From contig NC_091209.1 of assembly GCF_040958095.1 (NCBI RefSeq), positions 11,358,895 to 11,422,894 of the forward strand: 64,000 nucleotides of DNA, read 5' to 3'. The stretch is from Procambarus clarkii (taxonomy: Eukaryota; Arthropoda; Malacostraca; Decapoda; Cambaridae). Position 1 is the stretch's first letter; every line of letters starts with the position of its first letter. A program made the translations under genes and the position numbers. Of this stretch, positions 5,535-52,500 are shown piece after piece. The notes under the pieces are model-generated. The model saw only the letters and a list, made by a program, of their open reading frames with translations. It was not told the origin of the DNA and did not search any database.

Positions 5535-6225
5535 ATGCAAAGGGAAGGGAAAGAGAAGAGGGAAAGGAGGGGAAAGAGAAGAGGGAAAGGAGGGGAGAGA
5601 GAAGAGGGAAAGGAGGGGAGAGAGAAGAGGGAAAGGAGGGGAGAGAGAAGAGGGAAAGGAGGGGAGAGAAGAGGGAAAGGAGGGGAGAGAGAAGAGGGAA
5701 AGGAGGGGAGAGAGAAGAGGGAAAGGAGGGGAGAGAGAAGAGGGAAAGGAGGGGAGAGAGAAGAGGGAAAGGAGGGGAAAGAGAAGAGGGAAAGGAGGGG
5801 AAAGAGAAGAGGGAAAGGAGGGGAGAGAGAAGAGGGAAAGGAGGGGAAAGAGAAGAGGGAAAGGAGGGGAAAGAGAAGAGGGAAAGGAGGGGAAATGAAT
5901 AGAGGGGGAAGGAGGAAAGAATGGAAAGCTTGGAGGGGTGGGAGGGAGGGGTTTGAAAGGAGGTGAGGCAGGAAGGGGAGTTAGGAAGGAGGGAGGAAAG
6001 GGAATTGGAAAGGAGGGAGAGAATATGAAGGTAAGGGAGAGGGAAAAGGAGGAAGGAGAGGGAGGAAGGAGAGGGAGGAAGGAGAGGGAGGAAGGGGAGG
6101 GAGGAAGGGGAGGGAGGAAGGGGAGGGAGGAAGGAGAAGGAGGAAGGGGAGGGAGGAAGGGGAGGGACATAGGGGGGAGGGGCAGGGTAGACTGAGAAGG
6201 TGGGGGAGAGGAGAGGAGGGGGGGG
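5535..6225. repeat. Polypurine minisatellite (23-bp, then 12-13-bp units)
   Basis: Left part: about 15 units of GAGGGAAAGGAGGGGA plus GAGAGAA. Right part: GGGAGGAAGGGGA type. The plus strand is over 600 bases of almost pure purine. Confidence 0.93.
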
Positions 6226-8870: not shown

Positions 8871-9344
8871 GACGAGGCCCTGGGAGGCAGGAGACTCTGG
8901 GTTCTAGACTAGAAGCTAACAAGGAGATTTCAATAAGCCGGTAAGACATTATCTCCACACCAGATAGATGGGCAAGGTTATAATCTGTATGTATAAAGTA
9001 TAATTTGTTTGTCCAAAGTAGGAGGCCAGATTCTTGGGCTAGCCTCACCAACTTTCCAGGATGACACATGCAGGGTATGGGAGTGTCATAGGCCAGTTGG
9101 GAGTGGCCCCAGTGCCACCATTTAAGGCATAACGGCATCTATGATGACCCCTTTGCTATTTTCGAGAAGTCTGAAATCGGGGATGTTTACCGAAGGGTTT
9201 TACCAGTGTTTTGGAGTTTCATAATATTAAATTTCGAGAGATAGATGGAGAAATGTAGAAAGGAGAGATGGGGGGGGGGGAAGGTGAGGTGAACAGGGGG
9301 GTGAGGGGGATGTTGGGGGATAAATGGGGTTGCTGAGGAGAGGG

Positions 9345-9475
9345 ATGTTAGCACCGTTCCTGTGCCAGGTAAGTCCACTACGGGCTCACCATAGCCCGTG
9401 CTACTTGCCCCGTTCCTGTGCCAGGTAAGTCCACTACAGGCTCACCATAGCCCGTGCTATGGTGAGCCCGAATCT
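9345..9475. repeat. Dispersed CACGGGCTATGG family, two tandem copies
   Basis: GTTCCTGTGCCAGGTAAGTC, GGGCTCACCATAGCCCGTGC twice; the second ends in its own inverted copy, GCTATGGTGAGCCCG. Confidence 0.65.
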
Positions 9476-9944
9476 ATAACAACTAACAACATCTATAACA
9501 ACATAACAGAAAGGGAGGTTATTATGATGAGGCTACACCACACCTTACTGTGTGATACAGTAAGGTGTGGTGTAGCCAATGATGCATGAGAAAGTGTAGT
9601 GTATCGGTATCTCTAATCTCGTGTTCGCCATGCACAACCCGGCAAAATACCTCAACATAATTACAACCTACTTACGAAAACCATCCCCTTGCACAGCTGA
9701 TAAGAAATATTAATTTCCATTATTGTCTTGCGTATAATTCATTTCAATATACAGTACATCCTTACCAAGTGTTGCAAGGGCTTGCAGCCACCTCCCTCTG
9801 ACCTTTGTTAAGGGCCACAGGGTAAGCTGTGCCCTAACACTATACCCACCTAACCCAACCCACATCCTACCCTCTCACTCCCTTCTTAACCACACCCACC
9901 ACCTCTCTCTCCACTACTTTGTTTTTGTACTCAATAACCCCACC

Positions 9945-11035
9945 CTCCTCCTGTTCACCCCTTTCATCTCATCTCCCTCACCTACAATCACCACTACCCT
10001 CATCTCTCACTCACAAGCACCTCTACCCTCCTCCTGTTCACCCCTTTCATCTCATCTCCCTCACCTACAATCACCACTACCCTCATCTCTCACTCACAAG
10101 CACCTCTACCCTCCTCCTGTTCACCCCTTTCATCTCATCTCCCTCACCTACAATCACCACTACCCTCATCTCTCACTCACAAGCACCTCTACCCTCCTCC
10201 TGTTCACCCCTTTCATCTCATCTCCCTCACCTACAATCACCACTACCCTCATCTCTCACTCACAAGCACCTCTACCCTCCTCCTGTTCACCCCTTTCATC
10301 TCATCTCCCTCACCTACAATCACCACTACCCTCATCTCTCACTCACAAGCACCTCTACCCTCCTCCTGTTCACCCCTTTCATCTCATCTCCCTCACCTAC
10401 AATCACCACTACCCTCATCTCTCACTCACAAGCACCTCTACCCTCCTCCTGTTCACCCCTTTCATCTCATCTCCCTCACCTACAATCACCACTACCCTCA
10501 TCTCTCACTCACAAGCACCTCTACCCTCCTCCTGTTCACCCCTTTCATCTCATCTCCCTCACCTACAATCACCACTACCCTCATCTCTCACTCACAAGCA
10601 CCTCTACCCTCCTCCTGTTCACCCCTTTCATCTCATCTCCCTCACCTACAATCACCACTACCCTCATCTCTCACTCACAAGCACCTCTACCCTCCTCCTG
10701 TTCACCCCTTTCATCTCATCTCCCTCACCTACAATCACCACTACCCTCATCTCTCACTCACAAGCACCTCTACCCTCCTCCTGTTCACCCCTTTCATCTC
10801 ATCTCCCTCACCTACAATCACCACTACCCTCATCTCTCACTCACAAGCACCTCTACCCTCCTCCTGTTCACCCCTTTCATCTCATCTCCCTCACCTACAA
10901 TCACCACTACCCTCATCTCTCACTCACAAGCACCTCTACCCTCCTCCTGTTCACCCCTTTCATCTCATCTCCCTCACCTACAATCACCACTACCCTCGTC
11001 TCTCACTCACAAGCACCTCTACCCTCCTCCCTCAC
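9945..11035. repeat. 83-bp minisatellite
   Basis: About 13 near-identical units with CTCCTGTTCACCCCTTTCATC and TACAATCACCACTACCCTC. As 83 is not a multiple of three, the 385-codon ORF cycles through three phases every 249 bp. Not a gene. Confidence 0.95.
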
Positions 11036-17270: not shown

Positions 17271-17523
17271 ATCATCCTTTCCACCCCAACATATCCACAT
17301 ACATACTCTCTATACATATTTATACATTTCATTATCCCGTTCTTACACAAAGTAATATTATACTCACCGACGTGTGTGATATTATATTTTTTCTTAATAA
17401 TATTTCCATTATGAAATGAAATTTAATTTAACCCAAAGTTTTTGATACCTGGTCGCTGTGTTATGGAAAGCCCGTTAGAGTGTGTGGAGTACTGGAGCAG
17501 CTGTGGTGGGAGGCGAGACTTGT

Positions 17524-19090
17524 CTCCCTGCACACCTCCCCAGGTAATACTCCCTGCACACCTCCCCAGGTAATACTCCCTGCACACCTCCCCAGGTAAT
17601 ACTCCCTGTACACCTCCCCAGGTAATACTCCCTGTACACCTCCCCAAGTAATACTCCCTGCACACCTCCCCAGGTAATACTCCCTGTACACCTCCCCAAG
17701 TAATATTCCCTGCACACCTCCCCAGGTAATATTCCCTGCACACCTCCCCAGGTAATACTCCCTGCACACCTCCCCAGGTAATACTCCCTGCACACTTCCC
17801 CAGGTAATACTCTCCCTGCACACTTCCCCAGGTAATACTCTCCCTGCACACCTCCCCAGGTAATACTCCCTGTACACCTCCCCAGGTAATACTCTCCCTG
17901 TACACCTCCCCAGGTAATACTCCCTGCACACCTCCCCAGGTAATACTCTCCCTGCACACCTCCCCAGGTAATACTCCCTGCACACCTCCCCAGGTAATAC
18001 TCTCCCTGTACACCTCCCCAGGTAATACTCTCCCTGTACACCTCCCCAGGTAATACTCCCTGCACACCTCCCCAGGTAATACTCTCCCTGTACACCTCCC
18101 CAGGTAATACTCTCCCTGTACACCTCCCCAGGTAATACTCCCTGCACACCTCCCCAGGTAATACTCTCCCTGTACACCTCCCCAGGTAATACTCTCCCTG
18201 TACACCTCCCCAGGTAATACTCTCCCTGTACACCTCCCCAGGTAATACTCTCCCTGTACATCTCCCCAGGTAATACTCCCTGCACACCTCCCCAGGTAAT
18301 ACTCCCTGCACACCTCCCCAGGTAATACTCTCCCTGCACACCTCCCCAGGTAATACTCCCTGCACACCTCCCCAGGTAATACTCCCTGCACACCTCCCCA
18401 GGTAATACTCTCCCTACACACCTCCCCAGGTAATACTCTCCCTGCACACCACCCCAGGTAATACTCTCCCTGCACACCTCCCCAGGTAATACTCTCCCTG
18501 CACATCTCCCCAGGTAATACTCCCTGCACACCTCCCCAGGTAATACTCTCTGTACACCTCCCCAGGTAATACTCTCCCTGCACACCTCCCCAGGTAATAC
18601 TCTCCCTGCACACCTCCCCAGGTAATACTCTCCCTGCACACCTCCCCAGGTAATACTCTCCCTGCACACCTCCCCAGGTAATACGTCTCTCCCTGTACAC
18701 CTCCCCAGGTAATACTCTCCCTGTACACCTCCCCAGGTAATACTCCCTGCACACCTCCCCAGGTAATACTCTCCCTGTACACCTCCCCAGGTAATACTCT
18801 CCCTGCACACCTCCCCAGGTAATACTCCCTGCACACCTCCCCAGGTAATACTCTCCCTGTACACCTCCCCAGGTAATACTCTCCCTGCACACCTCCCCAG
18901 GTAATACTCTCCCTGTACACCTCCCCAGGTAATACTCTCCCTGCACACCACCCCAGGTAATACTCCCTGCACACCTCTCCAGGTAATACTCTCCCTGCAC
19001 ACCTCCCCAGGTAATACTCTCCCTGCACACCTCCCCAGGTAATACTCCCTGCACACCTCCCCAGGTAATACTCTCCCTGCACACCTCTAC
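17524..19090. repeat. 28/30-bp minisatellite made of acceptor-donor motifs
   Basis: About 53 units alternate between 28 bp (ATACTCCCTG) and 30 bp (ATACTCTCCCTG). Every unit carries CACACCTCCCCAGGTAATA on the plus strand. A pyrimidine-rich tract ending in CAG is joined directly to GTAATA. Variants include GCACAC/GTACAC and rare CCCCAAG. The minus-strand ORFs of 553, 531 and 296 codons come from this periodicity. Confidence 0.93.
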
Positions 19091-25846: not shown

Positions 25847-26060
25847 CTAAGCGCTAGTGTTGTCATTCTCCTGAGAGCGAGAGTTGTCGTACTCGATCTC
25901 GTCGGCTACGGTGATGGTGGAGGGACCCCGCTGGATCCTGCTGTAGGCTCCCTGAGGGCGGCGACACAGCCACCCGTGACGCCAATACACCAGCAGCGAC
26001 ACCGTCGCCAGGCTCACGCCCAACCCAGCCACCATCAGCCCCACTAGAAACCCAAAGGAC
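25847..26060 (-). CDS. LRR type I membrane protein, exon 8 (membrane segment and tail)
   Basis: This last coding exon covers Lys419 to residue 489 and the stop. The acceptor is TTGTGTCCACAG. Residues 421-445 form one membrane-spanning helix, FGFLVGLMVAGLGVSLATV being its core, stopped by YWRHGW. The tail of about 44 residues has basic residues next to the membrane and an acidic tyrosine stretch, ADEIEYDNS. No TIR, kinase or ITIM motif is visible, so signalling, if any, is through partners. Overall length and order resemble trophoblast-glycoprotein-like and other small insect LRR receptors, but I cannot name an orthologue. Confidence 0.85.
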
Positions 26061-27765: not shown

Positions 27766-27995
27766 AACATTCTATTGTCGACGAGATTCATTAGTGGCGA
27801 AGCCTTGACCCACTTCATCCGACAGTCACAGTTCCAGTGGTTGTATTCAAGGCGGACCTGACGAAGGTGCTGCCAGGGTAGCAGATCCTCCGGAAGTGTC
27901 GCCAAGATGGAGAACGAGAAGGTGAAATCTTCTACAATGATCGCCTTGTCTACCTGGTGGCCTGTCTGAGGATCTATCACCTGCTCGTGGAAGGC
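27766..27995 (-). CDS. LRR type I membrane protein, exon 6 (last LRR and LRRCT start)
   Basis: This exon covers residues 312-387 and two bases of 388. The acceptor is CCTCCCGCAG and the donor a strong GTAAGT at 27765, phase 2. It encodes a longer insert, AFHEQVIDPQTGHQVDKA, then ILATLPEDLLPWQHLRQVRL and the C-terminal cap entry YNHWNCDCRMKWV with C367 and C369. The insert between repeats is a distinguishing mark of this protein within the LRR superfamily. Confidence 0.86.
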
Positions 27996-28200: not shown

Positions 28201-28446
28201 ACTGAAGGTATTGTAGGGAGTGACCTCTGACTCCATAATGATATGACCTAATGACTCCATAATTGATAATATATAAAATTAAAACAAACTTAAAAATATA
28301 TAATTCAGTAATTCTGATATTTAGAATTGGTATTTTAGCCCATTTTTAAAATAGGATGCGAAAAATACTGACAACTAATACACAGATCCTTTATCCCGTT
28401 TCCTATTATTTCTGACCAGTATAACTAAAACCGCCATATTGCTAAC

Positions 28447-28611
28447 TTTTGGATGGATGTACTTGATCCTGGGCATGTAGCGGAGGACGACGGTCTCCAG
28501 GCTGTCCAGGTCCCCAAAGGCGTAGGCCTCAATGGTCTCCAGTAGCAAGAATCTCTCCAAAATGAGCGTCCGTAAGTTTGTGAGGTTGAAGAAGGAGTAG
28601 GCTCCCAGGGA
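28447..28611 (-). CDS. LRR type I membrane protein, exon 5
   Basis: This exon covers residues 257-311, in phase 0 at both ends. The acceptor is GGCCGCCAATAG and joins GNPIQ to SLGAYSFFNLTNLRTL, restoring a repeat that spans the junction. It contains LETIEAYAFGDLDSLETVVL and ends IKYIHPK. The donor GTTAGC is the weakest in the gene. The join to exon 6 (IHPK-AFHEQ) still reads as an LRR loop, so I keep it. Confidence 0.8.
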
Positions 28612-29084: not shown

Positions 29085-30431
29085 CATGACCCGGACACCG
29101 TGGGAGCGCCACATGGGCTCACCATAGCCCGTGCTACATGGACACTTCGTTCTGAGTAGCTAAATCTGAAACAACAACATCCACACATGACCCGGACACC
29201 GTGGGAGCTCCACACATGACCCGGACACCGTGGGAGCTCCACACATGATCCGGACACCCTGGGAGCTCCACACATGACCCGGACACCATGGGAGCTCCAC
29301 ACATGACCCGGACACCATGGGAGCTCCACACATGACCTGGACACCGTGGGAGCTCCACACATGACCTGGACACCGTGGGAGCTCCACACATGACCCGGAC
29401 ACCCCTGGGAGCTCCACACATGACCCGGACACCCTGGGAGCTCCACACATGACCCGGACACCGTGGGAGCTCCACACATGACCCGGACACCGTGGGAGCT
29501 CCACACATGACCCGGACACCCTGGGAGCTCCACACATGACCCGGACACCGTGGGAGCTCCACACATGACCCGGACACCATGGGAGCTCCACACATGACCC
29601 GGACACCATGTGAGCTCCACACATGACCCGGACACCGTGGGAGCTCCACACATGACCCGGACACCGTGGGAGCTCCACACATGACCCGGACACCGTGGGA
29701 GCTCCACACATGACCCGGACACCGTGGGAGCTCCACACATGACCCGGACACCCTGGGAGCTCCACACATGACCCGGACACCGTGGGAGCTCCACACATGA
29801 CCCGGACACCCTGGGAGCTCCACACATGACCCGGACACCGTGGGAGCTCCACACATGACCCGGACACCATGGAAGCTCCACACATGACCCGGACACCCTG
29901 GGAGCTCCACACATGACCCGGACACCCTGGGAGCTCCACACATGACCCGGACACCCTGGGAGCTCCACACATGACCCGGACACCCTGGGAGCTCCACACA
30001 TGACCCGGACACCCTGGGAGCTCCACACATGACCCGGACACCGTGGGAGCTCCACACATGACCTGGACACCCTGGGAGCTCCACACATGACCCGGACACC
30101 CTGGGAGCTCCACACATGACCCGGACACCGTGGGAGCTCCACACATGACCTGGACACCCTGGGAGCTCCACACATGACCCGGACACCCTGGGAGCTCCAC
30201 ACATGACCCGGACACCCTGGGAGCTCCACACATGACCCGGACACCGTGGGAGCTCCACACATGACCTGGACACCCTGGGAGCTCCACACATGACCCGGAC
30301 ACCCTGGGAGCTCCACACATGACCCGGACACCGTGGGAGCTCCACACATGACCTGGACACCCTGGGAGCTCCACACATGACCCGGACACCCTGGGAGCTC
30401 CACACATGACCCGGACACCCTGGGAGCTCCA
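29085..30431 (-). repeat. 29-bp minisatellite in LRR-gene intron 4
   Basis: About 43 head-to-tail units (29181-30431), each with CACACATGACCCGGACACC and a variable G/C/A before TGGGAGCTC. Variants are mostly at this one position and at CCCGG/CCTGG. One isolated unit at 29085-29112 is separated from the array by a 68-bp piece of another repeat family. All minus-strand frames are open by periodicity; the long ORFs are not coding. Confidence 0.93.
29113..29180. repeat. Dispersed repeat with CACGGGCTATGG palindrome, inside the 29-bp array
   Basis: It contains GGGCTCACCATAGCCCGTGC, the same core seen at 9380, 9440, 37410 and 39560. It interrupts or flanks the minisatellite. Confidence 0.6.
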
Positions 30432-30712
30432 CCATAAACCCATGACAACCGCAGGAAGGGAGGAAGCTGTGAGTTATCAAGCCAGACCTGATAATGTCAC
30501 GTGTTTGTCGTAGATAAACAGATAAGCGCATTGGACGATAAAGACTGGTTATTGGGAATTAACTTATCTCAATTTAACATTTATAAGCATAAAACTTTTG
30601 ATGACTAATTACAATGAATGGATATAGACAAAATTTTAAGTTTAAAACATTTCTTAGAAGTTATCTTAGGTTAATACTTAAAATTAATGGATAATTGGGG
30701 GTATGTATTGGG

Positions 30713-30866
30713 ATCACCACGCACCTGTATGGGGGAGGGGGTCACAACGCGCTTGTATGGGGTCACAACGCGCTTGTATGGGGTCACAACACATCTGTAG
30801 GGGGTCACCACGCACCTGCATGTGTCACCACGCACCTGCATGTGTCACCACGCACCTGTATGGGGT
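30713..30866 (-). repeat. Short tandem repeat of the exon 4 donor in LRR-gene intron 4
   Basis: Seven units of 20-28 bp. On the minus strand each is CCCCATACAG followed by GTGCGTGGTGA: the last bases of exon 4 plus its splice donor. Four units, including the real one, keep GTGCGT. Three have lost it (AGATGT, or AAGCGC twice). Confidence 0.85.
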
Positions 30867-30970
30867 TACCAGAGAGGTCGAGGGTGACGAGGGAGTCGCG
30901 CAGGAGGAAGAGAGCCTTGGCGGGGACGACGGTCATGTTGTTGACAGCCAGGGACACCTCCTGCAGACTC
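30856..30970 (-). CDS. LRR type I membrane protein, exon 4
   Basis: This exon completes residue 218 and encodes 219-256. The acceptor is GGTGTGCGGCAG and the donor CATACAG|GTGCGT at 30855, leaving phase 0. It encodes two LRRs, LQEVSLAVNNMTVVPAKAL and SLVTLDLSGNPIQ. The intron begins with a 20-21-bp tandem repeat that copies the last ten exon bases together with the donor (see 30713-30866). Confidence 0.85.
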
Positions 30971-31424
30971 CTGCCGCACACCCAACACGTCTCCGTTATT
31001 TGCAACAGTAATTAGGTAGGTCAATAGGTAGGTAATTGTCAGGAGAAAGCGCTTAGCCAGAACGACTGTATAGCACACTTAAGAGGGGAGTGGCCGGTCG
31101 CGCCCGGGTCTCTCTTCACCCTTATTCCATCTCTCCCAACTTAGCCCTTTGTCCCAGTATCTTTCCTCTCTCTCTCACCTCTCTTCCCATGACTTGACAC
31201 TTTTCAACTTTCTCTCCCAAGATATTCCTCCCCTCATACTCTTCTCATACTCTTCTCCTTCCCTCTCCACCTCTCACACCTTTCCCCTCCCTCACACACA
31301 CCTCTCTCCCATTTTCACCGTCTCTCCCAGTTTTCCAACTCTATTCACTCTTCCACCCCACCTCACCATCTGTCTTCCCCCCCCTTTCTCTCCTTCCCTC
31401 ATCTCCCCTTCTTTTCCACCCCCT

Positions 31425-31498
31425 TCTCTCTCTCACTCTCTCTGTCTCTGTCTCTCTCACTCTCTGTCTCTGTCTCTCTCTCTCTGTCTCTCTCTCTG

Positions 31499-31533
<35 letters not shown>

Positions 31534-31622
31534 GTCTCTATCTGTCTCTCTCTCTCTCTCTTTCTCTCTTTCTCTGTCTCTCTCTTTCTCTGTCTCTGTC
31601 TCTGTCTCTCTCTTTCTCTGTC

Positions 31623-31653
<31 letters not shown>

Positions 31654-31684
31654 TTCTCTGTCTCTGTCTCTCTCTCTCTTTCTT

Positions 31685-31715
<31 letters not shown>
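31425..31715. repeat. (CT)n/(CTGTCT)n pyrimidine tract ending in (AC)n
   Basis: About 280 bases of CTCT and TCTG in LRR-gene intron 3; the wider region 31150-31430 is also pyrimidine-rich on the plus strand. Confidence 0.93.
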
Positions 31716-32749: not shown

Positions 32750-32985
32750 GTGAGGTTGGGGTGGAAGAAGTCATTTGGTAGACTAGACAGTTTGAGGGCG
32801 GCAAGGTCTAGCTTGGTGAGGGCAGTGTTCTGGGCCAGTAAGGACGGGCTGAGGGTCACCAGCGGGTTGAACGCCAGCCGTAGCTCCTCCAGGTTCACCA
32901 GCGGCCACAACACCTCCGCGGGTAGGTCCTCGATCTTGTTGTAGCTAAGGTCTAGCCGGGTCAGGTTGTGGAGCCCAAAGAACGC
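32750..32985 (-). CDS. LRR type I membrane protein, exon 3
   Basis: This exon covers residues 140-217 and two bases of 218. The acceptor is ACTGTGATACAG before AFFGLHNLTRLDLS, in phase 0 with exon 2. The donor is GTGAGT at 32749-32744, leaving phase 2. It encodes about three more repeats: LTRLDLSYNKIEDLPAEVL, LEELRLAFNPLVTLSPSLL and LTKLDLAALKLSSLPNDFF. NLT near the end is a potential N-glycosylation site. The upstream bases up to the stop-free frame limit belong to the intron. Confidence 0.87.
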
Positions 32986-35513: not shown

Positions 35514-35731
35514 ATTTGTGTCGATGGTTTTTAACTTGTTGTTCTTGAGGAGGAGCGTAGCGAGGACCTTGAGCGGCTGGAAGACCAGAGCGTCGATGGT
35601 CTCCAGTTCGTTGTCCGAGAGGTCGAGGGACACCAGCGAGCTCGAGTCGCTGAAGGTAGACACGGAGAGGCTGGAGATGTGGTTCCTGGAGAAGTCAATT
35701 CTGGTGTACTGAGCGGGAACCTCCATTTGAT
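35514..35731 (-). CDS. LRR type I membrane protein, exon 2
   Basis: This exon covers residues 67-139. The acceptor is TGTCTGCTGCCGACAG and the donor GTAAGA at 35513. It joins exon 1 in phase 1 and leaves phase 0. It encodes about three LRRs, seen in TRIDFSRNHISSL, LVSLDLSDNELETIDALVF and VLATLLLKNNKLKTIDTN, each with the LxxLxLxxNxL core. The first segment follows the LRRNT directly. The plus strand over this exon is also open but shows no LRR pattern and is a shadow. Confidence 0.87.
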
Positions 35732-36114
35732 CTGTCGGCAGCAGACATCGGGGATGACTGATGACTTCGTCTTGAGGACAACTAAGAGGACAACATCATT
35801 CTACCAGCTTCATATTACATGTTTAACCTAATCTATATTACAGTAACTAGGTCGACACTGCTCGATATTCAAACTGCCGCCTGGAAATATCTGAATTGAT
35901 ACTTAGTGATGTTTTTTATTGTATTTAATTTGAAGTACACACTAAACTAGTGAGCGTGAGTCTTCGTCTGTATTATATAACTTACGAACCAGAGACACGA
36001 CAACATGCAGTGATTCCAGGTAACAGACGTTGTTCTTGTATAGGTCAGTTACCGCCATGATTCCTGGAGGTATATGAGAGGACGGCCGCTACGTCGGTAC
36101 TGTCTGAGGCACTC

Positions 36115-37009
36115 ACCTGGAAGCTGGTGATGTTGGCGTCGCTGGACACCCACCTGGTGATATACTGGCGTCGCTGGACACCCACCTGGTGATATACTGG
36201 CGTCGCTGGACACCCACCTGGTGATATACTGGCGTAGCTGGGCACTCACCTGGAAGACTGGTGATATACTGGCGTCGCTGGGCACCCACCTGGTGATATA
36301 CTGGCGTCGCTGGGCACCCACCTGGTGATATACTGGCGTCGCTGGACACCCACCTGGAAGACTGGTGATATACTGGCGTCGCTGGGCACCCACCTGGTGA
36401 TATACTGGCGTCGCTGGGCACCCACCTGGTGATATACTGGCGTCGCTGGACACCCACCTGGTGATATACTGGCGTCGCTGGGCACCCACCTGGTGATATA
36501 CTGGCGTCGCTGGGCACCCACCTGGTGATATACTGGCGTCGCTGGACACCCACCTGGAAGACTGGTGATATACTGGCGTCGCTGGGCACCCACCTGGTGA
36601 TATACTGGCGTCGCTGGGCACCCACCTGGTGATATACTGGCGTCGCTGGGCACCCACCTGGAAGACTGGTGATATACTGGCGTCGCTGGACACCCACCTG
36701 GAAGACTGGTGATATACTGGCGTCGCTGGACACCCACCTGGAAGACTGGTGATATACTGGCGTCGCTGGGCACTCACCTGGAAGACTGGTGATATACTGG
36801 CGTCGCTGGGCAGCCACCTGGAAGACTGGTGATATACTGGCGTCGCTGGGCACCCACCTGGAAGACTGGTGATATACTGGCGTCGCTGGGCACTCACCTG
36901 GAAGACTGGTGATATACTGGCGTCGCTGGACACCCACCTGGAAGACTGGTGATATACTGGCGTCGCTGGACACCCACCTGGTGATATACTGGCGTCGCTG
37001 GGCACCCAC
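36115..37009 (-). repeat. Minisatellite of splice-donor copies at the start of LRR-gene intron 1
   Basis: About 25 tandem units of 32 or 40 bp. On the minus strand each unit carries CGACGCCA, then ATCACCAG (long units add TCTTCCAG), then GTGGGTG or GTGAGTG. This is the 3' end of exon 1 with its donor. The two outermost copies keep CCAACATCACCAG as in the exon, while inner copies share the variant CCAGTATATCACC. Units with GTGAGT lie at about 36116, 36245, 36773 and 36893. All three minus-strand frames stay open for long distances, which explains the large spurious ORFs here. Confidence 0.92.
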
Positions 37010-37208
37010 CTGGAAGACTGGTGATGTTGGCGTCGCGACAATCGATGCCGTTCCTGCTTGCTGGGAGGAGCTTGGTGGGGCAGCGGCAGGTGGAGGGGCA
37101 GAGCTGCAGGACCTCTGTGGCACCCCACAGGAAGCCACCACAGCACACCGCCTGCCCTATCACCACCATCACCAACACCCACCCACCACCTCTCCACTCC
37201 CCCCCCAT
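37010..37208 (-). CDS. LRR type I membrane protein, exon 1 (signal peptide and LRRNT)
   Basis: Exon 1 of an eight-exon gene encoding 489 residues. It encodes residues 1-66 plus one base. Residues 9-29 form a hydrophobic signal peptide. Then comes an N-terminal LRR cap with C37, C41, C43 and C57 in the pattern CPSTCRC...DCR, followed by NITSLP, the usual entry into the first repeat. The donor is CCAG|GTGGGT with intron base 1 at 37009, leaving phase 1, which the acceptor at 35734-35732 matches to give LP-DQMEVP. I chose the Met at 37208 because it places the hydrophobic run correctly. The donor is the first of about 26 tandem near-copies that fill the start of intron 1. Extracellular LRR proteins of this build act in adhesion or receptor recognition; the ligand cannot be told. 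Confidence 0.85.
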
Positions 37209-37394
37209 CTCCTGGTGCCCCGTGGCTGGTTGTGATGCTTAGTGGCCCAAATGATGTGATTCCCGTACTCTTTTCTTCCTGAATGTGCATAGAGAAGTGA
37301 CATTAATTGACTATGATGGCCAGTTGACTGATAGTCGTATTGCTGCTGTAACAGTGGGCGAGGAGTTGTTTAAGATTCAGCTACTGGGAACAAA

Positions 37395-37560
37395 AAGTTC
37401 CAAGTAGCACGGGCTATGGTGAGCCCGTAGTGAACTTACCTGGCACAGGAGCGGGACTGTAACTGGGCGAGGAGAGAGGAGGCTATAATTATACTTTACA
37501 TGATTGATGATGATTAAGCCCCCAAGAGGTGGCACGGGCATGACTAGCTCGTAAGTACTT
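37395..37560. repeat. Dispersed CACGGGCTATGG family
   Basis: CACGGGCTATGGTGAGCCCG, ACTTACCTGGCACAGGAGCG, then TGATGATTAAGCCCCCAAGA and GGTGGCACGGGCATGA. Confidence 0.65.
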
Positions 37561-40385: not shown

Positions 40386-40474
40386 ACTCATTCACACTAA
40401 CATCATGACACCCAACATCACTAAATGTTAAGAACAGTGTAGCAGATATTGTGGGATGTAATGTATCGCCTTAA

Positions 40475-40620
40475 CCTCCTTGACCTCACCCGACCTTCTC
40501 CTCCCTGACCTCACCCCATCTTCTCCTCCCTGACCTCACCCGCATCTTCACCGCCCTGACCTCACCCGCACCTTCACCGCCCTGACCTCACCTCATCTTC
40601 ACCGCCCTGACCTCACCCCA
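40475..40620. repeat. 26-bp minisatellite
   Basis: Five to six units of CCCTGACCTCACCC plus (G/C)CATCTTCACCG. Confidence 0.85.
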
Positions 40621-49564: not shown

Positions 49565-52500
49565 TATAAATGAGTCAAACAATTGTAAAGAAATATTCAT
49601 ATCTTGTATGAATGATCAGCAAATGTAATGTATAGTACTTAAAGAGAAAGTTGTTGAAGCCACTTCCTTCCATAACTTTAAGGTCAGCCCTGGAAACAAA
49701 CCGAAACCGTCTCTATTTTCCGCTTGTTACAACTTGTAATAAAGTTGTTACATCTTGGCTTAACGTGTTTATGACGTATTAGAACGTTGTTACAACTTGC
49801 TATGTTGGTTGTTGTAACTGGTTAGGAGGTGTTAAAACTTGTTCGAACGTTGTGCCAACGTCGTAGTTTCGATGTGTGTTTGGCGGGAGATTCTACAAAG
49901 AATTAAAATGTCATAATACTGTAGTTAATTTATCACTTTAGGTGCAGCAAGGTTAGTAGGAAGGGGTACAAAGAGCTAGACCTCACTTCCACATTGTCAC
50001 TGATAAGTAAGTACTGTATTGATGTGATGGTGTGGACCTAGTATCTTTTTATATATGTTTCTAGATTTGTATTCCTTTTTAGGCTATAGTGGTCACATGA
50101 AAGGGCGAGTTTCTCCCTTACTTGGATTTAGTCGATCATGCCCTCCTCTGAAGTTTCTCCCCTACTTGGATTTAGTCGATCATGCCCTCCTCTGAAGTTT
50201 CTCCCCTACTTGGATTTAGTCGATCATGCCCTCCTTTAAAGTTAGCACAAGATCTATAATGCTGTTATTTCTTGAGTGGACTCTGACACATGCTGTTTGA
50301 GAAGAGAGTCCTGTACTTGGCCAAAAAATTACTCTCCCTCTGTTACATTAGATTATGCTCCTGCTCTGTTCTTCTAATGCTATACTACTCACTAATCTAT
50401 CCCTATCTAATTTACGGTATCTGTGCATAGAGTTCAGCCACTGCAAACTACCTCAAGCCCATCATCACTTGGTAAAAATAAGCTATAAGAACCAACAAAT
50501 TCTATCATCAGACAACACACAGCCCCTATGTTCAAATCTTAAACATGCTAAACATACATTTACTCCACATGTTATCATGTGTTAAATACATTTAAAAACA
50601 AAAGTTGTTCCTAAATTGTAATCCTATCTTGAATCTCTTCCATGATAGATGTAATAGAACCCATGAACATCACACCAGAAATAAATCTCTGATATTCCCA
50701 GAGTTAGACTAAATCTATGCAAGCATGCCACACAAATAAAAGAACCCAGTATAGTATTTGGAACTCGCTCCTTAATGAGTTAAAAAATTATCCAACCTAT
50801 ACATTATTCAAAAGTAGAACAATGAAGTATGCAGTTTCATCTTTATAGCATCCCACCTTGTTCTGTTAACTTATTCAGTATCTTGTGCTACCCACTCACC
50901 CAGTACATCACAGTATAAGAATGGAACTTCATCGGTATGATATAATTTATCACTATACTCTGGTAGTTATGTGAATTCAAATTCTGCTACAATGTACCAA
51001 TCATTACACTTATTTATTAGTTTAATCTTAATTATCTTCCCAAAATGCTATGCATGCTAGTGATTTTGCAAGAATGTACCTCTTAATCACCAATATATGT
51101 AAGTACAGTACTCTCATAACCCATTGTACTTATATTTATATAAATAAATTAATACAAAATATAAATAAATGCAAAATAAATAATAAATTCACCCAGTCTA
51201 TTGTCTCATGGTTAAAATCCCCCATTATAAGTGCTTTGGATTCAATTCATCTCCTGATTTTATCACATTATGCAGGTCTGTAACTTCCTCAGCCATGTGT
51301 ACATACCTGAGTACTGTATTCTTGTTACTGTACTTAATTGCTCATTGGTAGTTGCAGACAGGTCACGTGTGTATAAAATATACACATTCATACATATGTA
51401 TATACGTACATATTATAGTACATATTAAACCTCTTGCTCTTGTTATTCTATCCATTTTGGAAGGTGATAAAGTAATTTCACTTCAGTTACTTTTTTCTTG
51501 TCCCCATGTTTTGCTGAGCCCAATGATGTTGGGCTTTTTAACCACAATATTCTGTATATTGTCCCTATGGTCTTGTGCCTGCATGTCAGTGGAGATGTAT
51601 AGGGCTATTTCTAAGTCTCTAATAGAGGACTTAGTCGTCTACATCTACTAACTTGATTACCTGCCCTTTCCTTAGCTGTAGCTTTGAATTTGTGTGTTGA
51701 AGGTATGATTTTCAACTCCTTTAGCTTGTCTCAATTTTTTGTCATTGTTTTGCTGTTTTTACTGTGAGGTGTGGGGATATGTTGCTATACCTATCCAGTT
51801 ATCTGCAGTTTTGTGCATTTTTAAGTATATTTAATTTGTGCAGATGATGAGCGTAAATGAAGGTAATGATAAAGGCTGTACAGTACTTTGATGTTTATGA
51901 AAGTACAGTACTGTATAGTAGTCTTCAGTAGTGTTTATGTTCAGACTGTACAGTATTCAGAAAATCATTGTTTATTAGCTCCAGTTTGAAGCATCTGAAT
52001 TTCCTTTGATGTCAAGTAGTGTTTTGAAATATTTGATATCCTTTGGTTTATCTAAGAAGTGGACCATGTATCTTATAGATTATACTCTGCTGGAGATCAC
52101 AGTCTAGATATCATTTTTTATGAGCACTACTTTTAATCTTTGTGGTTGGGTTTATCTGCCAGGCCTTTTTTTTAATGCATGTTAAAATGATGCAATCAAG
52201 TATTTATTACAAAGACATACAGTAGACTAGAGTGCTGTATACAGATACAAATTATGGAACTCATAGTAAATAAAACACTTAATTTTTCTGGCACAAAAAA
52301 ACACAACTTCAAAACAGTGCATCAGGAGTTTTTAGTCATAATATTTTATGGTTGTAAATACTGTAAAAGGTATCAGCCTCTGCAAAAGTATGCTGGAGCC
52401 TCAGCATAGTTCATTTAATGGAAAGTTATCATGCACAGAGATAATTTTGTTATTGAATTAATTTTCTGAAGAATTTTTACAGTCCTTAGTATTGAACTTT

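Follow-up and report, generated by a model that had tools for sequence, protein, structure and literature searches.

We wanted to investigate why the first intron of a predicted leucine-rich-repeat (LRR) gene of the crayfish Procambarus clarkii opens with a long run of tandem splice donors, and which of these donors the gene would use. The window, that is the whole stretch of DNA that was analysed, comprises 64,000 nucleotides. A short motif known from decapod crustaceans was matched four times with up to 1 mismatch, which is no more than a lead to the origin of the DNA. The gene was predicted to have the following exons (the slash marks a splice boundary).

37010..37208, minus strand: exon 1 (coding), with the ATG, a hydrophobic signal-peptide-like segment and an LRRNT-like cysteine cap, ending ...NITSLP; donor CAG/GTGGGT
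35514..35731, minus strand: exon 2 (LRRs), acceptor GACAG/ATC, phase-1 join to exon 1
32750..32985, minus strand: exon 3 (LRRs)
30856..30970, minus strand: exon 4 (LRRs, ends ...LSGNPIQ), donor CATACAG/GTGCGT
28447..28611, minus strand: exon 5 (LRRs), weak predicted donor AAA/GTTAGC (score -0.89)
27766..27995, minus strand: exon 6 (LRRs and NHWNCDC)
25847..26060, minus strand: exon 7, a hydrophobic transmembrane-like segment, a short tail and the stop

These seven predicted exons join in frame and encode a protein of 458 aa, which is predicted to be a receptor-like LRR membrane protein. It matched the Pfam LRR_8 model above the cut-off (E 1.3e-35), and its residues 1-388 matched 336 distinct solved chains at E <=0.001, the best being the acid-labile subunit of the IGF-binding complex (7e-39). 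Hydropathy analysis alone gave an N-terminal peak, VLVMVVIGQAV, in exon 1 and a transmembrane-like peak that starts at residue 394 (2.21 over 19 residues). Exon 1 encodes the cysteine cap motif CPSTCRC...C. The NHWNCDC motif in exon 6 presumably corresponds to the start of C-terminal caps, and part of this cap may be encoded in a further exon. The Pfam LRRNT and LRRCT models were absent from the six families found for the predicted protein at E 0.001.

The array, hereafter array 1, starts at the 3' end of predicted coding exon 1. Its features are as follows.

about 36105-37035, minus strand: donor minisatellite, 26 copies of the exon 1 end with its donor, flanking copies included; internal units 32 or 40 nt
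36117..37010, minus strand: 26 candidate 5' splice sites, given by the last exon-type base (first 37010, last 36117)
36117..36141, minus strand: last copy, in which the exon-like CGACGCCAACATCACCAG lacks 1 nt (CTTCCAG) and is followed by the donor GTGAGT
36938, minus strand: donor 3, the sole alternative array donor that keeps the frame (+24 aa)

We counted 26 CCAG/GTG junctions on the minus strand, from 37010 down to 36117. They comprise 21 CAG/GTGGGT, four CAG/GTGAGT (36898, 36778, 36250 and 36117) and a single CAG/GTGGCT (36818). The initial annotation had put the number of donors at about 26, four of them GTGAGT, and had taken the first copy to be the exon end at 37010; the counts agree, and 37010 matches the predicted end of exon 1. 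Among the 25 donor-to-donor intervals 13 were 32 nt long, 11 were 40 nt and one was 37 nt. Cutting the array at CGACGCC or CTACGCC also yielded 26 copies, the first of which (from 37035) is the exon 1 end itself.

At the boundary of exon 1 the exon sequence CGACGCCAACATCACCAGTCTTCCAG is followed by GTGGGTGCC in the intron. In the 40-nt unit, 12 intron bases follow the last 26 bases of the exon, which have been altered by one substitution and an insertion of 2 nt. The 32-nt unit is without TCTTCCAG, which could have been lost between two CCAG repeats. As first described, the unit is the exon end plus its donor, but more of the exon is repeated than had been stated, with 26 exon bases from CGACGCC and approximately 12 intron bases. 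All 24 internal copies share AGTATATC and carry the 2-nt insertion, while AACATC is confined to the first and the last copy. The last copy bears instead the 1-nt deletion that gives CTTCCAG, is followed by GTGAGT and continues into CCTCAG, as compared with CCCAG in the internal units.

The proposal that an exon-intron boundary had been amplified into a minisatellite, with a last copy that is again exon-like, was borne out by shuffling. The exon boundary aligned with the internal units with a score of 64 (best of 2000 single-base shuffles, 28) and with the last copy, which shares AACATC, with a score of 59 (maximum in 2000 shuffles, 23). Allowing <=3 mismatches, we matched a 35-base unit pattern 24 times in the window and 0 times in 100 shuffles.

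We suppose that the 3' end of exon 1 was tandemly duplicated together with its 5' splice site, and that the duplication grew into a minisatellite within intron 1. In the simplest history, the exon end would have been duplicated early on, a middle copy would then have changed, and the changed copy would have expanded. The CCTCAG into which the last copy runs suggests the end point of the first duplication, and the near identity of the internal units is compatible with turnover, as judged from one sequence. We also considered the opposite direction, in which the array invaded the exon. This is unlikely, as the exon end encodes the tail of an LRR cap (ITSLPD), aligned through the join to LRR proteins. 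The alignment to 7wrq, a weak 21.0-bit stretch over residues 36-141, takes in residues 66-67, where exons 1 and 2 meet, and since it runs through this join the exon is the likelier source rather than the array. A coding role for array 1 is likewise unlikely, because its units have lengths that three does not divide and carry frame-breaking changes. Two other minus-strand frames are open across the array (36049-37302; 417 and 347 codons, one with an ATG at 37290), and nothing was found that pointed to coding in them.

These two open frames bear on whether the 5' end of the gene model is wrong. Transcription would then start elsewhere, and the array would belong to an exon that ends at 36117 and is untranslated or read in another frame. 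Such an exon could draw on the open frames with their ATG, on the last donor, which is of the strongest type (GTGAGT), and on the failure to find the Pfam LRRNT model in the predicted protein. We regard it as very improbable: the hydrophobic start, the cysteine cap and the phase-1 join all suit an exon 1 that ends at 37010, and the 1-nt deletion in the last copy breaks the phase that exon 2 needs.

In order to compare the strength of the array donors, we scored them with a donor frequency matrix and computed the energy of their U1 duplexes. The scores from this table were 5.71 for GTGGGT, 8.25 for GTGAGT and 1.71 for GTGGCT. The corresponding duplex energies were -12.5 or -13.3 kcal/mol (depending on the base at +8), -13.3 kcal/mol and -7.3 kcal/mol. 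CAG/GTG was present in 26/26 copies, and 25/26 reached a score of at least 5.71 with this matrix. The donors had been called near-equal; this holds for GTGGGT and GTGAGT (-12.5 to -13.3 kcal/mol) and fails for the single, weaker GTGGCT. Donor 1 itself had a score of 5.71 and a U1 duplex of -12.5 kcal/mol, and the GTGAGT copies were stronger (8.25, -13.3 kcal/mol). As several later donors are equal to it or stronger, the core site gives no reason for a preference for donor 1.

Sites of this strength are concentrated at the array. Among 4413 minus-strand GT sites, 37 scored at least as high as CAG/GTGGGT, and 24 of those 37 lay within 36000-36999. Of the 884 GT sites in the gene, two outside array 1 reached 5.71, namely 35101 (CAG/GTAAGT) and 31179 (GAG/GTGAGA). 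The former is a perfect site inside intron 2, and it outscores the own donor of exon 2. The six intron donors scored 5.71, 3.81, 3.51, 5.12, -0.89 and 2.39.

We spliced each array donor in silico to exon 2 onward and obtained a full-length open reading frame from two of the 26, donors 1 and 3. The product of donor 1 has 458 aa, and that of donor 3 (36938, minus strand, +72 nt) has 482 aa, with 24 additional residues. Donor 2 (+32 nt) brings exon 2 out of frame and yields 143 aa, with a stop at codon 144 in exon 2; donor 4 (+112 nt) does so as well and yields 115 aa, with a stop at codon 116 in exon 2. Each of donors 5-26 yields 104 aa, the first GTGAGT creating a TGA at codon 105. For donors 2 and 4-26, 24 in all, the stop precedes the last junction by 766 to 1744 nt. 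Most array donors break the frame because the spacings of 32, 40 and 37 nt are not multiples of three. The initial annotation had frame 1 open to 36894, which is correct, yet donors 2 and 4 are still unusable. Its expectation that use of the next few donors would add up to about 38 residues to the LRRNT has to be dropped, as donors 2 and 4 are off-frame and only donor 3, with 24 residues, could do so.

Stop-bearing transcripts are generally degraded by nonsense-mediated decay. We favor, with a probability of about 0.62, the reading in which the boundary of exon 1 became a minisatellite, donor 1 is mostly used and leakage leads to unproductive mRNA. Splicing would proceed mainly from the first donor, at 37010, because only donors 1 and 3 yield the full protein, and the preference for donor 1 may have the usual answer, its position near the cap and the exon. 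The remaining copies would leave with intron 1 and so could accumulate. Leakage to donors 2 or 4-26 would produce early-stop transcripts, which would probably decay. The array may thereby lower the yield of productive mRNA or make it vary, the more so the longer it is, and its length may vary between individuals. Expression may depend on repeat number.

The array could also be inert, donor 1 being used essentially always, aided by the proximity of the exon and the cap, and the copies having no effect on expression. The requirement of a full open reading frame for donor 1 or 3 suits this as well, and so does the abundance of arrays: the 20 that we took amount to 16% of the window, so an array needs no function. 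With 25/26 sites scoring at least 5.71, however, zero leakage would demand a preference that was not seen, and we consider an inert array possible but rather unlikely.

Donor 3 could instead belong to a regulated switch between two isoforms, the second of which would carry 24 extra residues (GGCPATPVYHQVGVQRRQYITSLP) past the N-terminal cap. Donor 3 is in frame and stop-free, and the insert ends again with ITSLP. The insert would however place one more cysteine next to a cap in which disulfides are presumably present, and donor 2, which shifts the frame, intervenes. Such a switch seems improbable to us.

Some of the copies resemble acceptors too. CTTCCAG closes 13/26 of the exon-type ends (that of donor 1 and 12 further downstream), and these ends are acceptor-like as well as donor-like. 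As an acceptor TTCCAG/G scored 2.7, which is above 96% of the 781 AGs in the gene and above 4/6 predicted acceptors; with the A of exon 2 after it, TTCCAG scored one bit lower. The array might on this ground correct itself, either by re-splicing a wrong CTTCCAG/ATC junction from donor 1 or by its units serving as zero-length recursive splice points. If this were true, exactly the right mRNA would be restored and a wrong choice of donor would be tolerated. The other 13 exon-type ends (ATCACCAG) had acceptor scores <=-0.19, and the pyrimidine tract of the CTTCCAG candidates is short. We give self-correction only a slight chance.

Another exon of this gene, exon 4, likewise ends in a donor array.

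30712..30866, minus strand: second donor array (array 2), exon 4 end, about 7 copies 20-28 nt apart

The boundary of exon 4 reads CCCCATACAG in the exon and GTGCGTGGTGAC in the intron, and copies continue to about 30712. CAG/GTGCGT is intact in four copies (30856, 30836, 30816 and 30725) and lost in three, once as CAG/ATG and twice as CAA/GCG, as judged by eye. Only 30856 leads to the full protein, while 30836, 30816 and 30725 give stops after 323, 296 and 272 aa. Judged by eye, the last copy resembles the exon copy more closely than the middle copies do, as in array 1. Array 2 looks like an older, decayed instance of the same event. Tandem duplication from an exon end would be tolerated provided that the upstream donor works, as the downstream copies would be spliced away; this would account for both arrays keeping one good exon copy upstream and drifting within. 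The indels in the internal copies (2-nt insertion) and in the last copy (1-nt deletion) of array 1 are as expected when coding constraint is absent. Intron 4 holds a further array, of 1.25 kb with 29-bp units (29180-30432), which follows array 2 downstream at a distance of about 300 bases, and three minus-strand frames are open throughout it.

Exons 1 and 4, whose donors have been amplified, have the two highest-scoring of the six donors of the gene, a number too small for testing. Two of the six donors and none of the six acceptors of the LRR gene lie inside arrays. The four arrays of the gene make up 22% of it. When they were placed at random, at least two of the six donors fell inside them in 33% of 20000 trials, and we therefore make no claim that donors are hot spots for minisatellites.

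We surveyed the arrays of the window as 20 stretches out of 67 tandem-repeat rows, with periods >=19 bases and overlaps mostly merged. Simple repeats, such as a 280-base CT stretch within the gene (31425-31704), and short rows, such as 8979-9020, 28221-28268, 31299-31335 and 51138-51188, were excluded. At a score of at least 5, about one donor-like site per unit was detected in three of the 20 arrays: 36134-37036 (minus), 9354-9459 (plus) and 9942-11030 (minus). Three sites (0.49 per unit) were detected in 30738-30866 (minus) and one each in 5961-6167 and 40470-40618. At a score of at least 3.5 there were 55 sites in 17523-19087 (plus) and six in 40470-40618 (minus). No exon could be linked to the surveyed donor-like arrays outside the LRR gene.

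Some of these arrays had features of their own. The array at 17523-19087 (plus) is made up of about 56 units of 28 bp, most of which carry CCCCAG/GTAATA, and its 55 donor-like sites are of moderate score; by eye, its first copy closes the open frame MESPLECVEYWSSCGGRRDLSPCTPPQ, and no gene could be linked to it. The array at 9942-11030 has 13 copies of 83 bp that are 99% alike, with one good donor-like site per unit (minus). A repeat with CCAGGTAAGT, CACTAC and GGCTCACCATAGCCCGTGCTACTTG is present by eye in two tandem copies at 9354-9459 (plus); it recurs at about 37400-37480 (minus), just upstream of exon 1, and carries a perfect donor consensus.

A minisatellite that supplies several splice donors was reportedly described by Turri, Cuin and Porter in 1995 in the human gene IFI6 (6-16, G1P3). 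The IFI6 array has about 26 frame-preserving copies of a 12-nt unit close to the end of exon 2, and the units that serve as donors are the repeats nearest the exon. A paper that cites this work states that two downstream repeat units act as donors besides the main form, giving three mRNA species, and that the form of 130 residues predominates (PMC4526556). Array 1 is like IFI6 in that a minisatellite offers several donors in one transcript, in our case candidate donors read from the sequence. It differs from IFI6 in that the units are 32 or 40 nt long, about 26 bases of each derive from the exon and 24/26 donors break the frame; unlike IFI6, the crayfish LRR gene also has a second exon that ends in a small array. 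We would expect a pattern of donor usage here that resembles that of IFI6.

Other systems share parts of this arrangement. According to a study of human genes in segmental duplications, internal minisatellites average 30-bp units in four copies, and tandem repeats at exon-intron boundaries can alter splicing via new introns (Genome Biol 2009, PMC2812944). Half of those repeats lie in coding exons with transcript support, whereas array 1 has many more copies and was read from DNA alone. Intron gain through tandem genomic duplication of an AGGT-bearing exon segment is treated in a review (PMC3443670). Compared with what is given there, array 1 likewise has a duplicated exon segment with AGGT, each copy being donor- and acceptor-like, but the intron here has its own acceptor outside the array, at 35731. 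In C. elegans an intronic minisatellite has been linked to genes with several splicing decisions (PMC4039745). We found no comparable donor array in a crustacean among the titles and abstract openings listed by searches of the open-licence literature.

In summary, array 1 extends the IFI6 kind, its units holding more of the exon and having a length that breaks the frame; given this precedent, a known kind is extended and no new kind is opened. Twenty-six near-equal donors in one intron form a natural experiment in which the reading frame reports the choice of donor, as nearly every wrong choice destroys the protein. If RNA showed that the first donor dominates over later donors of equal strength, positional preference (proximity to the cap or exon) would be separated from site strength. 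If the length of the array varies between animals, a simple repeat would set the output of the gene through splicing.
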